Virus record (IMG/VR): IMGVR_UViG_3300045970_000120
Location: 1 to 28,860 of that record
Source of the DNA: a virus
Reading direction: 5' to 3' (one strand)
DNA: 28,860 bases
The notes beneath the pieces were generated by a model that worked only from the letters and a program-made list of their open reading frames with translations, searched no databases and had not been told where the DNA came from. Numbering within the stretch: the stretch's first letter is position 1; the number at the start of each line of letters is the position of its first letter. Below are positions 2,447 through 28,749 of this stretch, piece after piece. The position numbers and the translations under genes were made by a program.

Positions 2447-3239
2447 TGAATGTTGTTCTTTCTAATCGTTTTATTCGTATCTTTTCTTTAGTCTCGGCGG
2501 AATGTTTTCTGCCCCACATAGGATTGTGATCACCGCTGTTATTTTTTCCAAGCAGCTTGTTATGGATCTCCGCACGAACTCGTAACAGATCCGTGACAAT
2601 AGTTTTGATGTCAATTTCAACAGGGCCAACAAGTTCTCCTGGGCTGCAGGACCAATCACCGCATAAGGTCGACCGATTGGTATTGCGGCTGGCGTTCGCA
2701 AGCATAGCCGAATAACTCAGGTGTCTATCCTTGCAAAAGTCTTTCAAATTTTTGATGACTATCTTTTCAGTAGTTTGATGATTTATGCAGGTGAATATTT
2801 TGCTATGCGCTTGCCCTCGTTTTTTGAGGAATTCAGGATCGCGGTTGAAGGATGCTGACATCTTTTTCTTTGTCTCTTCGGAGTGAGGAGATTGTTTCTT
2901 TCCGAGTTTGCTATCACTTATTTTTTTGTTATGGAGGATCCGAGCCTCGGTCGAAAGCGTTGACCAATAGTGGTCACCACCATCTCCACCTTTACTTATA
3001 TTGTATCCGAACTCATCCAGAGTAGATTTATAGAAATCTATCCAAAATACCTCTCGTTGGTTGACCTCATCGGTCCTGCATTCCTCTATGGTGTCTTTCT
3101 TGAAGATGTCTCTACCATATTTTTTTAGGGCGTAAGTTATCTTTAGTCCTGACCCAAAATATGTTGGACTGTCATACTTTGATTTTCCAATGTAAACTTT
3201 GTTGTTGATCGTGTTTGTTATTTTGTAAATAAATGGCAT
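2439..3239 (-). CDS. GIY-YIG homing endonuclease with NUMOD3 repeats
   Basis: This 266-residue protein opens with a GIY-YIG nuclease domain (FIYKITNTINNKVYIGKS, residues 3-20; YFGSG and YGRDIF follow) and continues with NUMOD3-type DNA-binding segments around SDSKLGKKQSPHSEETKKKM and GDHNPMWGRKHSAETKEKI. The layout matches free-standing seg/mob-type homing endonucleases of T4-like phages, which cut cognate loci lacking the gene and spread by recombination. No intron is evident: the flanking genes are intact. A late-type octamer and a GAGGGAA ribosome-binding site precede the ATG at 3239. Its 3' end overlaps the uvsW start, so the element is neatly fitted between genes. Target site unknown. 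Confidence 0.9.
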   Translation of the reverse strand: MPFIYKITNTINNKVYIGKSKYDSPTYFGSGLKITYALKKYGRDIFKKDTIEECRTDEVNQREVFWIDFYKSTLDEFGYNISKGGDGGDHYWSTLSTEARILHNKKISDSKLGKKQSPHSEETKKKMSASFNRDPEFLKKRGQAHSKIFTCINHQTTEKIVIKNLKDFCKDRHLSYSAMLANASRNTNRSTLCGDWSCSPGELVGPVEIDIKTIVTDLLRVRAEIHNKLLGKNNSGDHNPMWGRKHSAETKEKIRIKRLERTTFNG

Positions 3240-3265
3240 AGTTCTATTCCCTCAAGCTATACATT

Positions 3266-3272
3266 TATTTAG
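3266..3272 (-). promoter_or_regulatory. Late promoter motif CTAAATA
   Basis: GACTAAATAA on the minus strand lies 27 bases upstream of the GIY-YIG start, giving a short leader that contains the GAGGGAA ribosome-binding site. It resembles the T4 late consensus TATAAATA. Confidence 0.6.
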
Positions 3273-4595: not shown

Positions 4596-5630
4596 TTACT
4601 TGCAGCAGGTTACTTTAGCCAACTCTTGCCAGCCTGTGGGACGGATCTTGATCAGATCAGCGATTTTCAGCGCAGCCCTCATGGACACTTCGCGCAACGA
4701 CTTAGCGTTTTCCTTCATGTAGTTCAGGATCTGATCGGCCTCGTCGCCTTCAAAATCGTACTCAGCGAACAAACCACCATCGGCATCCCGATGTACTTGG
4801 TGAATACGCAGCATTTTGTCGCGTTCCGTTTCGATTGCCAGATTCAGAAAGTGGCAACGAGATTGCAGCGCTTCCAGGTGATCCTGCATTTTCTTGGAAC
4901 GGATGTTGTTGAAGTTGACGTTGGTGATGAAGATCACCGAGCCCTTGAATTCAAAACTGTCCGGGATGCCTTCCTTACGGAGCAACGAGCTATCGCTGTT
5001 CCAGCAGATTTTGCGGCGTTTGCCGGAGTCCAAAGCACCCTTCAGAATGTTCAGGGAAAGCTCATCATTCCAAACGTCCAAGTCGTCCATGACAATGACG
5101 TTACCCTTGTCAGAGAAACGATAAAGCAGGGCGTACAGACCAAGTGCTGTCACAGCACCTTTTGCGATTTCAAAGCGGCAACGATTGCCGGTGATCTTGT
5201 CGAACAGACTGGCTTTTTCCAGTTGCTGCTCAACACCAAACGACTTGCCGACTCCAGGAGGGCCAGTGACGATGATTGAGCGAATTGAACCCTCGATACA
5301 AGCTTTGGACATTTCGTCCAGAACTGCGAAACGGGTAGCCATGCGATTCATAACTTCCTCGTCGGATTCAACGACGACAGGAGCCACCTCAGCGACAGCC
5401 TTGGCGACAGCAGTAGGAGCAGAATCGGGATTGCCTTCGGTGAATTCGATTTCCTCGATGCCGTCCACTTTCACACGGATTTCAGTGGCTTCGGAGTCAA
5501 ATTGCCCGTCATTCTTGACAGTGACATAGTGACCGTTCGTTCCCTTGCGGAAACCCTTGACCAATGTAAAGACCTGATTGGTGATTTGTTGTGAACGATA
5601 CGCGCCATTGAGAATTCGAACTGTAGACAT
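4596..5630 (-). CDS. MoxR-type AAA+ ATPase
   Basis: A 344-residue AAA+ protein with Walker A GPPGVGKS (residues 123-130), Walker B VIVMDDLD (178-185), a sensor-1 asparagine in FITNVNF, a candidate arginine finger in LQSRC (Arg258) and a sensor-2 region near SLREVSMR. MoxR-family ATPases act as chaperones, usually with a vWA-domain partner; here the candidate is the metallopeptidase/vWA gene at 27442-28749. The first 60 residues form an extra beta-rich N-terminal region not typical of MoxR. The start at 5630 has AAAGGAAATCA before it. A longer frame from 5684 would run through the promoter, so it is rejected. Expressed from the early promoter at 5656-5684. Confidence 0.85.
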   Translation of the reverse strand: MSTVRILNGAYRSQQITNQVFTLVKGFRKGTNGHYVTVKNDGQFDSEATEIRVKVDGIEEIEFTEGNPDSAPTAVAKAVAEVAPVVVESDEEVMNRMATRFAVLDEMSKACIEGSIRSIIVTGPPGVGKSFGVEQQLEKASLFDKITGNRCRFEIAKGAVTALGLYALLYRFSDKGNVIVMDDLDVWNDELSLNILKGALDSGKRRKICWNSDSSLLRKEGIPDSFEFKGSVIFITNVNFNNIRSKKMQDHLEALQSRCHFLNLAIETERDKMLRIHQVHRDADGGLFAEYDFEGDEADQILNYMKENAKSLREVSMRAALKIADLIKIRPTGWQELAKVTCCK

Positions 5631-8703: not shown

Positions 8704-8733
8704 GCTGTCTAGGACCATATATTTAGAGACAGC
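8704..8733 (-). promoter_or_regulatory. Inverted repeat enclosing a late promoter motif
   Basis: Perfect 7-bp arms (GCTGTCT / AGACAGC) flank a 16-base loop containing CTAAATA (8720-8726). Transcripts from further upstream would carry the whole hairpin 18 bases before the ATG, while transcripts from this promoter would lack the 5' arm. Confidence 0.55.
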
Positions 8734-8775
8734 TATTGTCACCTGCGGAATGCCGATGACAAAATTCGATACAAC

Positions 8776-26084: not shown

Positions 26085-26381
26085 TCAGAGATTTTTCAGT
26101 AGTCGGTCAGTTTCTGGCTGGACCATGTCTGCTATTGAGGCCACGTTCAGAACGAACTCCACGCTCACTATCATGGCGTCAAGTTCCTCTAGTTTTCGGC
26201 TCATGACCTCTTCCACCTGTTCGGGTTCCAATCCCTGCGATAGCAGTTTCTGGACATTCAGGGTGTGCTGTTTTTTACCTTCGAGGCGAATCACCAGTTT
26301 TTTGATGAACTGGATTGGTATCTTCTGCTTCTCGACATCCTGTAGGATATGCTCCCACTTAGATAGGAATTCAGGCGACAT
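26085..26381 (-). CDS. Helical protein of unknown function
   Basis: A 98-residue, mostly helical protein (MSPEFLSKWEHILQDVEKQK...). The stretch PIQFIKKLVIRLEGKKQHTLN and the ending MVQPETDRLLKNL resemble a protein I recall from T4-like phages of cyanobacteria, whose role is not known to me. Its start overlaps the upstream gene by 11 bases, so the two are probably coupled and may act together. Confidence 0.8.
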   Translation of the reverse strand: MSPEFLSKWEHILQDVEKQKIPIQFIKKLVIRLEGKKQHTLNVQKLLSQGLEPEQVEEVMSRKLEELDAMIVSVEFVLNVASIADMVQPETDRLLKNL

Positions 26382-27045
26382 TTGCTACTTTACGGGTGTA
26401 TTTGCGTTTCACCGTTGTTGCTTCACTTGCGACCGGCTTCGGTGCCAGTGTCGGGTCAAGCGTCTTTGCCTCTTCCATCAGTCGTGCCGATTCAGCAAGC
26501 AAGCCCCGGGCTTCTTCTGCCATCTTGTTTGCCTGAGAAACACGCGATTTAGCAAGTGCGGCGTCACCGAGAACATCTGCCGATGCTGCGACCACTGGTG
26601 TTTGATTGGCCCTCATGCGCTTGGCGATATCACCTGGTGACTGAATGCCGGCGCTCTGGTCCAGTTCAGACATTTTCTTGATGGCATCTTCGCCGAGCTT
26701 CATTTCGTCAAGCATCTTGTTCAGTTCGTCAAGCCGAATTTTTGTGGTCGGGTTGGGAGTCATCAAAATGCTCGTTGTCTGAACTTTTTTCAGTTGACCT
26801 TCACGGTGAAGCACGCCAAGAATTGGCCGACCGTCTTGTAGATAGGTGCGATTCAATGCGTCGGCAAGATTTTCACTTTGCTGTCCGATGTCTGAATCAA
26901 TACACCGGATCAACGGATCGTGGATGTGCTGATTGAGTAGCTCCGTGTAAGTGACAAGGCACATATGCGGCTCGCCCGGAACTTCCCTAAATACTACTGC
27001 GACCTTGCGGTCCCCTTGTTTTCCGACATGGCGGGTAAATGACAT
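26371..27045 (-). CDS. Conserved-looking phage protein, unknown function
   Basis: A 224-residue protein. The first 130 residues (MSFTRHVGKQGDRKVAVVFR..., ADALNRTYLQDGRPILGVLH) form a compact alpha/beta or helical domain like an uncharacterised family I recall in T4-like phages. The second half is an Ala-rich helix (SRVSQANKMAEEARGLLAES...) with coiled-coil character, then a Pro-rich linker and a basic tail (KRKYTRKVANVA), compatible with nucleic-acid contact. The AAGGAGAT ribosome-binding site lies in the 3' arm of a 10-bp hairpin that also encloses a late promoter, indicating late-specific translation. Confidence 0.82.
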   Translation of the reverse strand: MSFTRHVGKQGDRKVAVVFREVPGEPHMCLVTYTELLNQHIHDPLIRCIDSDIGQQSENLADALNRTYLQDGRPILGVLHREGQLKKVQTTSILMTPNPTTKIRLDELNKMLDEMKLGEDAIKKMSELDQSAGIQSPGDIAKRMRANQTPVVAASADVLGDAALAKSRVSQANKMAEEARGLLAESARLMEEAKTLDPTLAPKPVASEATTVKRKYTRKVANVA

Positions 27046-27049
27046 AACT

Positions 27050-27089
27050 ATCTCCTTAGATGAATATATTTAGCGAGTGCTAAGGAGAT
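27050..27089 (-). promoter_or_regulatory. Hairpin with late promoter in loop, hiding ribosome-binding site
   Basis: Perfect 10-bp arms ATCTCCTTAG / CTAAGGAGAT with a 20-base loop containing CTAAATA (27067-27073). On the minus strand the downstream arm is the Shine-Dalgarno sequence of the 27045 gene. Long transcripts from the vWA operon would fold and hide it; transcripts from the loop promoter would not. Confidence 0.75.
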
Positions 27090-27098
27090 GAAAATATT

Positions 27099-27458
27099 TT
27101 AGTTGATGACGTTTTTCTGGCCGGTGTAGCCTGAGTAGATTTTATGTCCGTTCACGCGGATGAAGTCAGCCATGAATTGTGGGCTCTCGGTGAACGCCTC
27201 ACGGACACTCGGCTCGTCAATGTCAGCAGTCTCAAAAATGTAGACTTCGTATCGGCGCTGAGTATTCGCCATTGCCCGGGCCAGGATCGTGTTGAGGCGT
27301 GGTGCTGGAGGAGCATCTGGATGCTTCTGCTCTTTCAGGATATACCAGATTTTTTTCTTTTCCCAGGCCTTAGTGTCTTTTTCCCAACGGGTCAGATCAA
27401 AAAGTGTCTCTAACCCGTTGCAGTCCCAGACTGCAAGGAATTTAGTTTTTTTCGTCAT
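27099..27458 (-). CDS. Small conserved-looking phage protein
   Basis: A 119-residue protein from the ATG at 27458, overlapping the end of the vWA gene by 17 bases. A longer frame reaching 27722 is only the out-of-frame shadow of the vWA gene. The body (FLAVWDCNGLETLFDLTRWE..., RRYEVYIFETADIDEPSVRE, FMADFIRVNGHKIYSG) resembles a hypothetical protein seen in other T4-like phages. Two strands followed by helices, no motif. Translational coupling suggests it works with the metallopeptidase/vWA protein. Confidence 0.8.
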   Translation of the reverse strand: MTKKTKFLAVWDCNGLETLFDLTRWEKDTKAWEKKKIWYILKEQKHPDAPPAPRLNTILARAMANTQRRYEVYIFETADIDEPSVREAFTESPQFMADFIRVNGHKIYSGYTGQKNVIN

Positions 27459-28749
27459 AGAGTGCGAACTGACCGAACGGTGGGTTCGGGTTTTTGTCAC
27501 CATGAATGATCCAAGTCGTGTCGCAAAAATCCGGGTCACCCCAAGATCCGCAGGGGTATCCGTCAGTGAACACGATGAGCCGTTGTGGGTTCCGACCGTT
27601 GTCCTTGAGATATTCAAAGATACAATCAAAGTCAGTGCCGCCACCGCCAGCCACTTTGTACTCGCCAATGTCGTCCATATTTTCACTGGAAAAGTCAGCG
27701 GGGTTATACACCGCAGTGTCAAAACAGAAAACGTGAAGCTTGTAGCCGTCGAATGCGTCGGTCATTCCGCCGATTTCAGCGAGAAACTCACCAGCTTGCT
27801 TTTCGCTGATGGAGCCGGACATGTCGATTGCGATGTCAACGTCAATTTCCTCACCAGGGCGTGATCCGGGCATGATTGCTTCCATATGCCAAGACCGACG
27901 ACTCGGACGCATCCAACTGTAGTCAGTGCGGATTGCGCTTGTCAGGTTCGTCTGGATCAGTTCACGCCAGGGCATGATCGGATTCGTTGTCTGACGGATC
28001 ATGCGCTCAACACCCGCCGGGAGGGTTCCTGCATCCGCGCCTTGTGCGGCACTGATGATAGCTTGCTTGACTTCCTGACGGATGCGTTCCTTTTCAGCTT
28101 CCGACAGTTGAGGGCGCTTGCTCTTGCCTTTGCCGGGCTTGCCGTCTTTGCCTTTACCCTTGCCTTCGTCGTCACCCTCACCCTCGTCGTCACTCTCTTC
28201 GCCATCCATGTGGTCGTCGATCATTTGGTCGATGAGGTCGCCAATGTTGATTTTCTTGGCGTTTTTGTAGAGTTCGTCATAGACTTCCTCAGCCGACTTT
28301 CCGTCGTACTTCGGATCGTAGAGACACGGGACAGTGGTGATTTTCTCACCAATTTTGTGCTTGATCAGGTCAGCGTTGACGCAATAATCGTCAGCGACAT
28401 TCCAAAGTTGAGGATCGCGTGAACCGCGGCGTCCCATGTGATCATACACCACGTGGAGAATTTCATGACCGACCAGAAATTCCACCTCTTTTACGCGCAG
28501 TTTCATAATGAACCTGGAATTGTAATAGAAGTGAACGCCGTCGGTCGCAGCGGTGCCGCACCATTCATCAGCGTTGGTCAGCTTGAGCCGAGTAGCCAGA
28601 TTGCCGAAAAACGAGTGACGCAGGAGGAGCCCGATGCGGGCTGTAATCAGGCGTTCACGGGCAGCATGATCCACCTTCGGATCAGTCGGGCCGATGAGAT
28701 TTTCGTACTTTTCGCTCTTGACCTTGGTCGTTTTTGCTGCGGTAGCCAT
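27442..28749 (-). CDS. Putative metallopeptidase with vWA domain (DUF2201-like)
   Basis: A 435-residue protein. An N-terminal zincin-like domain carries HEILHVVYDH (residues 95-104, HExxH) followed by WNVADDYCVNADL (118-130). A low-complexity linker (183-212) is acidic, then Gly/Lys-rich. The C-terminal vWA domain has a complete metal-ion-dependent adhesion site: DMSGS (309-313), GGGGTDF (Thr372) and FTDGYP (Asp396). This fused layout is known from DUF2201/VWA-like proteins encoded beside MoxR ATPases. Here the ATPase lies at 4596-5630 under a matching promoter. The start at 28749 follows AAAAGGAATCAA; a frame beginning at 28803 would include the promoter. Substrate unknown. Confidence 0.88.
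   Translation of the reverse strand: MATAAKTTKVKSEKYENLIGPTDPKVDHAARERLITARIGLLLRHSFFGNLATRLKLTNADEWCGTAATDGVHFYYNSRFIMKLRVKEVEFLVGHEILHVVYDHMGRRGSRDPQLWNVADDYCVNADLIKHKIGEKITTVPCLYDPKYDGKSAEEVYDELYKNAKKINIGDLIDQMIDDHMDGEESDDEGEGDDEGKGKGKDGKPGKGKSKRPQLSEAEKERIRQEVKQAIISAAQGADAGTLPAGVERMIRQTTNPIMPWRELIQTNLTSAIRTDYSWMRPSRRSWHMEAIMPGSRPGEEIDVDIAIDMSGSISEKQAGEFLAEIGGMTDAFDGYKLHVFCFDTAVYNPADFSSENMDDIGEYKVAGGGGTDFDCIFEYLKDNGRNPQRLIVFTDGYPCGSWGDPDFCDTTWIIHGDKNPNPPFGQFALYDEKN

Follow-up and report, generated by a model that had tools for sequence, protein, structure and literature searches.

A late-type promoter nested in a hairpin predicted to sequester a Shine-Dalgarno sequence: a probable timing switch in a virus with T4-superfamily genes

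Introduction

In bacteriophage T4, translation of gene e from the long RNA is cut about 100-fold. The genes e, soc, 49 and I-TevI each possess a late promoter placed in a hairpin, in its arms or between them, and this hairpin closes the ribosome-binding site (RBS) (PMC3014915). On the long early RNA the RBS is closed by this hairpin, and the late RNA lacks the 5' arm (PMC3014915). A sequence-only reading of the locus studied here had taken this logic as established for e, soc and 49; it is indeed documented for these genes, and for I-TevI as well (PMC3014915). The leaders of I-TevI, I-TevII, I-TevIII, segB and Aeh1 mobE follow this promoter/hairpin logic inside early or middle operons (PMC2988022).

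T4 late promoters have been described as being without a -35 element, and in the late-promoter form of Aeromonas phage Aeh1, (A/G)C-TAAATA, the dinucleotide (A/G)C replaces the initial TA (PMC2988020). In the jumbo phages CBB and GAP32, a T4-like late motif, ATAAATA, stands before structural genes (PMC5259590).

Results

A perfect inverted repeat encloses a late octamer and a Shine-Dalgarno sequence

The window is the whole virus record of 28.86 kb; the main genes read sit on its minus strand. T4-superfamily genes are present, namely those for terminase, UvsX, a gp32-like SSB and thymidylate synthase. The features of the locus, in the direction of transcription, are:

28803-28775, minus strand: sigma70-type promoter TTGACA-17-TATAAT (12/12 match)
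27442..28746, minus strand: DUF2201 metallopeptidase/VWA-like gene (Pfam PF13203 and PF09967)
27099..27458, minus strand: upstream gene of 119 aa (ORF), its stop codon abutting the AT-box
27091..27100, minus strand: AT-box AAAATATTTT, at a constant distance 5' of TAAATA; relative to the predicted start it lies at about -38 to -32
27080..27089, minus strand: 5' arm of the hairpin (anti-SD), ATCTCCTTAG, from the perfect inverted repeat and folding
27074-27067, minus strand: late octamer GCTAAATA in the loop, of the Aeh1-type consensus, its TAAATA conserved in orthologue leaders
27050..27059, minus strand: 3' arm of the hairpin, CTAAGGAGAT, containing the Shine-Dalgarno sequence (SD) AAGGAG of gene 27045-26371, from the repeat and folding
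26371..27045, minus strand: gene of 224 aa under the hairpin, phrog_15894, function unknown (PHROGs, orthologues)
26085..26381, minus strand: gene of 98 aa, overlapping the 3' end of the 224-aa gene by 11 nt, no PHROG

The arms at 27050-27059 and 27080-27089 form a perfect 10-bp inverted repeat with a spacer of 20 nt. On the minus strand the repeat reads ATCTCCTTAG-CACTCGCTAAATATATTCAT-CTAAGGAGAT-AGTT-ATG, and the region including the AT-box reads AAAATATTTT-CATCTCCTTAGCACTCGCTAAATATATTCATCTAAGGAGATAGTTATG. The initial description of a perfect 10-bp repeat with the octamer in its loop and the SD in its downstream arm is borne out, and its coordinates are exact. Perfect 10-bp inverted repeats with a spacer of 3-40 nt occur only three times in the window, and two of them (27050-27089 and 3226-3271) are located at sites that combine a late octamer with a translation start. 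When the 50 nt upstream of the SD were shuffled, a perfect SD-covering stem of at least 10 bp arose in 0.13% of the shuffles; none arose when leaders were swapped among 51 orthologues.

A divergent gene as the cause of the other arm was considered and rejected. The plus strand has no divergent ORF: AAGGAG is directly followed by ATG AAA ATA TTT TAG, that is, by four codons and a stop. Searching Rfam gave nothing but one sub-threshold match to PhrS (E 0.24) on the other strand, which was taken as chance.

The SD is predicted to be closed in read-through RNA and open in late RNA

Predicted accessibility of the SD is 0.02 in the long read-through leader and 0.47 in the predicted late leader. In the long RNA, a predicted helix of 9-10 bp covers the SD, which is the sequestration expected of such a switch, and in RNA beginning at the predicted start 27061 the SD core is predicted to be open. 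The folding energy of the 121-nt leader is modest, with a z-score of only -1.71. The claim that the SD is hidden in read-through RNA and open in late RNA finds support at the level of predicted folding.

The repeat at 3226-3271 (minus strand), TAAATAAATG / CATTTATTTA, is likewise perfect and belongs to a GIY-YIG homing endonuclease gene (phrog_314; 3239-2439). Its 5' arm contains the late octamer ACTAAATA, and the codons following the AUG constitute the 3' arm. The start is predicted to be closed only in read-through RNA, as for I-TevI and segB, and this gene looks like a further homing-endonuclease-leader case. Another repeat, GCTGTCT / AGACAGC at 8708-8740 on the minus strand, surrounds a second CTAAATATA octamer upstream of gene 8686-7847; since it lies about 20 nt upstream of the RBS, it does not close an SD.

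The promoter is conserved among orthologues and the hairpin is not

The loop octamer GCTAAATA differs from the 8-bp T4 consensus box TATAAATA, which this promoter therefore lacks. The promoter is positioned immediately 5' of the RBS, as in a T4-type switch, and from the spacing in T4 the late RNA is predicted to start near 27061. A late octamer in the loop, as first proposed, is present, though as the variant GCTAAATA and not as a plain T4 octamer, and it is accompanied by an AT-box at -35.

The 224-aa gene is encoded by 80 viral contigs. Identity among its orthologues is 60-77%, and the proteins of 26 aligned members share 63-77% identity with that of the window. In the orthologue leaders read, TAAATA is found 5' of the start codon. 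Because the motif stands ahead of the gene in orthologues, the putative promoter is well supported; at the level of sequence, this conservation is strong evidence for it. The window is alone in having a perfect stem of 8 bp or more; the 50 remaining distinct orthologue leaders (51 in total) have none, and weaker pairing is no commoner in these leaders than in permuted ones. Conservation of the hairpin among orthologues was thus rejected, and owing to this absence the hairpin is not a conserved property of the 27045-26371 gene. Judged from these leaders it is lineage-specific, and may have been either gained in the lineage of the window or lost elsewhere. The distant cultured orthologues of PA5oct, 121Q, Munch, Atu_ph07, XaC1 and Vibrio 2.275.O have no TAAATA directly upstream and are for this reason uninformative on the switch.

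The putatively controlled gene and the presumed early operon

For the product of 27045-26371, profile searches against Pfam and the PDB gave no significant match, and the PHROG and Pfam searches gave no endonuclease match. The AlphaFold model of the 224-aa product (mean pLDDT 60) is too poor for a fold search. The overlapping 98-aa gene is probably co-expressed with it and would share its control. The sequence-only reading had named an uncharacterised gene pair as the target; the arrangement is not confined to the 27045-26371 gene.

The gene at 27442-28746 is presumed to be the head of an early operon, and the promoter at 28803-28775 is, from its sequence, the presumed source of early read-through RNA. 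Between this promoter at 28.8 kb and the hairpin, a terminator scan found no convincing terminator; weak terminator-like sites occur inside genes only. Given the 12/12 sigma70-type promoter upstream and only weak intragenic terminator-like sites, early RNA is likely to read into the 27045-26371 gene from upstream. Cultured jumbo phages, 121Q and Munch among them, retain the neighbourhood, which consists of a VWA-type/Zn-hydrolase gene, a small gene, the window gene and, further on, thymidylate synthase.

Near-identical early promoters, TTGACAATAAATCC...TATAAT, precede the genes starting at 5630, 6783, 7121, 7455 and 28746. The family of the 27442-28746 gene is labelled HNH endonuclease in PHROGs (phrog_1314), seemingly in error; Pfam finds domains of the DUF2201 metallopeptidase and VWA-like types.

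The same architecture recurs at other genes of relatives

Two relatives of about 350 kb, G002 and G005, were scanned for perfect SD-covering stems of at least 8 bp, which were compared with a permuted null. Contiguous stem length against this null separated TAAATA genes from others; duplex energy alone did not, and was rejected as a test of SD sequestration. Such stems were found at 5 of the 78 TAAATA genes (null 0.30%), an enrichment of about 20-fold, and at 1 of the 295 other genes (null 0.18%). The enrichment is restricted to TAAATA genes in these genomes. Between orthologous leaders of G002 and G005, the arm sequences differ and the complementarity is kept.

The gene for the Ad2 head-tail adaptor, a neck protein (phrog_211), has a stem of at least 7 bp in 37 of 49 distinct leaders. 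In an alignment of 22 leaders, 93.9% of the cells pair, a percentage that leans upward because the leaders were chosen partly for showing stems. Eight of twelve pairs have changed on both sides, which depends less on this choice, and the covariation score is 0.389, compared to at most 0.066 for slid versions. As far as aligned sequences can tell, the covariation is strong. The co-varying SD hairpin (loci L570-L649) surrounds a late octamer and lies some 45 nt 5' of the matched gene. For the phrog_1574 gene, a stem of at least 7 bp was found in 27 of 48 leaders, a count that includes stems elsewhere in the leader; a MAFFT leader alignment, in which mis-anchored loci were mixed in, was left out of the pair counts.

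Sites of the form TCTCCTT..TAAATA..AAGGAGA in viral contigs were counted if they stood before a gene and were not divergent, so that 16 sites explained by divergent genes were excluded. Among the matches listed, 35 of 48 reach a length of 10 bp or more; for sites with reversed arms as a control, the corresponding number is 6 of 45, also among the matches listed. At G005 215095+ and G002 79261- (in the L544 and G002 blocks), the loop of a like architecture contains an early promoter: CCTATG / CATAGG arms enclose a sigma70-type TATAAT, and the SD lies in the 3' arm.

An AT-box with constant spacing to TAAATA

The promoters of the 27045-26371 gene and its orthologues (L001-L080), of which 53 are distinct, have AAAWWTT at -27..-21 from TAAATA. 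When these promoters are aligned on TAAATA, three positions of the AT-box each have an A in 94% of cases, and the spacing is fixed at about 20 bp upstream. This differs from the T4 late promoter, for which there is no conservation at -35. At the same loci, 39 other TAAATA sites have no AT-box and prefer an A at -1.

The bipartite pattern of AT-box and TAAATA matches 26 times in 12 records, compared to 6 matches for the reversed pattern, and at most six times per record. It is also found at other gene families, among them the phrog_1574 gene and a 222-aa gene. Across the window, G002 and G005, none of the 45 TAAATA sites that have an A at -1 possesses the AT-box, which accompanies 6 of the 38 others (Fisher p = 0.007, an optimistic value since some of the sites are orthologues); on these counts, the AT-box was rejected as a general late element. 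In the 222-aa gene family (L519, L522, L525, L529), the AT-box occurs together with a CTCTATA...TATAGAGAG hairpin; the 5' arm of this hairpin is found after TAAATA and before the predicted start.

As a tentative and somewhat doubtful suggestion, these promoters may represent a subclass of T4-type late promoters of jumbo phages, in which a -35-like AAAWWTTT about 20 bp before TAAATA offsets a non-A preceding base. Each genome would have a handful of them, read by some factor, and certain of the genes concerned, such as the window gene and the phrog_1574 gene, would also have an SD-closing hairpin. One may speculate that the AT-box serves as an UP-like element, or that an A/T-binding protein resembling DsbA occupies it. 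If functional, the AT-box would break the rule by which T4-type late promoters lack a -35 element.

Discussion

The late promoter nested in an SD-sequestering RNA hairpin is probably a timing switch. Early transcription would begin at the sigma70-type promoter near 28.8 kb and run through the VWA-like and the small gene into 27045-26371. In this read-through RNA, AUCUCCUUAG would pair with CUAAGGAGAU, so that the SD is closed and the gene silent. Later, the phage late polymerase would start near 27061 from the loop octamer; the resulting RNA, which has no 5' arm, would leave the SD open, and the gene would be translated. The repeat with its geometry, the conserved promoter, and the recurrence with covariation at other genes of relatives are direct observations, and those features of a switch of the e/soc/49/I-TevI type that can be tested by sequence were found. 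Against the switch count the lack of the hairpin in orthologues, the modest folding z-score of the leader, an octamer other than TATAAATA, and the AT-box, which the description of T4 late promoters does not include.

It is unlikely that, around a functional and conserved promoter, the repeat arose in this lineage by chance complementarity, without a selected role. The absence of the hairpin from all 50 other distinct orthologue leaders is what one would expect in this case. However, such a stem would arise by chance in the window leader in about 0.13% of cases, the geometry of SD and octamer is exact, there is a second case in the same window (3226-3271), and the device is enriched and co-varying at other genes of the phage group. 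Quite improbable is a DNA-level operator, in which the repeat would bind a dimeric repressor or activator controlling the central promoter. The dyad is perfect and centred on the promoter. In T4, DsbA attaches to A/T-rich sites that overlap with late promoters (PMC2988020), and the late promoter of I-TevI is overlain by an operator to which I-TevI itself binds (PMC2988022). An operator would not explain that one arm is exactly the SD, and at the Ad2 gene, which is a different gene from that of the window, the arms change while complementarity stays, which is in keeping with RNA pairing and not with a fixed protein site. Least probable is that the upstream operon ends here in a terminator or attenuator: the stem is indeed just 3' of the stop codon of gene 27458-27099, but it ends 4 nt before a start codon, its 20-nt loop is unlike that of an intrinsic terminator, no U-run follows and the scan made no call, so that an intrinsic terminator, which requires a short-loop GC-rich stem and a U-run, was rejected.

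If the timing switch operates as proposed, a device proven for a few T4 genes would be extended to a large group of T4-superfamily phages, most of which are uncultured. The covariation at the neck-protein gene is evidence that such hairpins are selected as RNA, and the arrangement provides a rule by which genes that would stay silent until late can be found in the sequences of these phages.

With respect to known systems, the ATAAATA of CBB and GAP32 is a T4-like late motif of jumbo phages, for which the available portion of PMC5259590 describes neither SD hairpins nor an upstream AT-box. The window octamer GCTAAATA fits the Aeh1-type variant (A/G)CTAAATA (PMC2988020); the description of these promoters contains no conserved AT-box at -35, whereas the promoters of the window gene and its orthologues have one. 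The leaders of homing endonucleases such as I-TevI follow a promoter/hairpin logic like that of the window, but the product of 27045-26371 is no endonuclease by the searches made. Compared to T4 e, soc and 49, the window gene is of unknown function, GCTAAATA replaces TATAAATA, an AT-box lies upstream, and the hairpin is not common to the orthologues. Judged from sequence, it shares with e (lysozyme), soc and 49 the layout of a promoter within an SD hairpin. The mechanism is already published for e, soc, 49 and I-TevI, and by analogy the window gene would be a further case.
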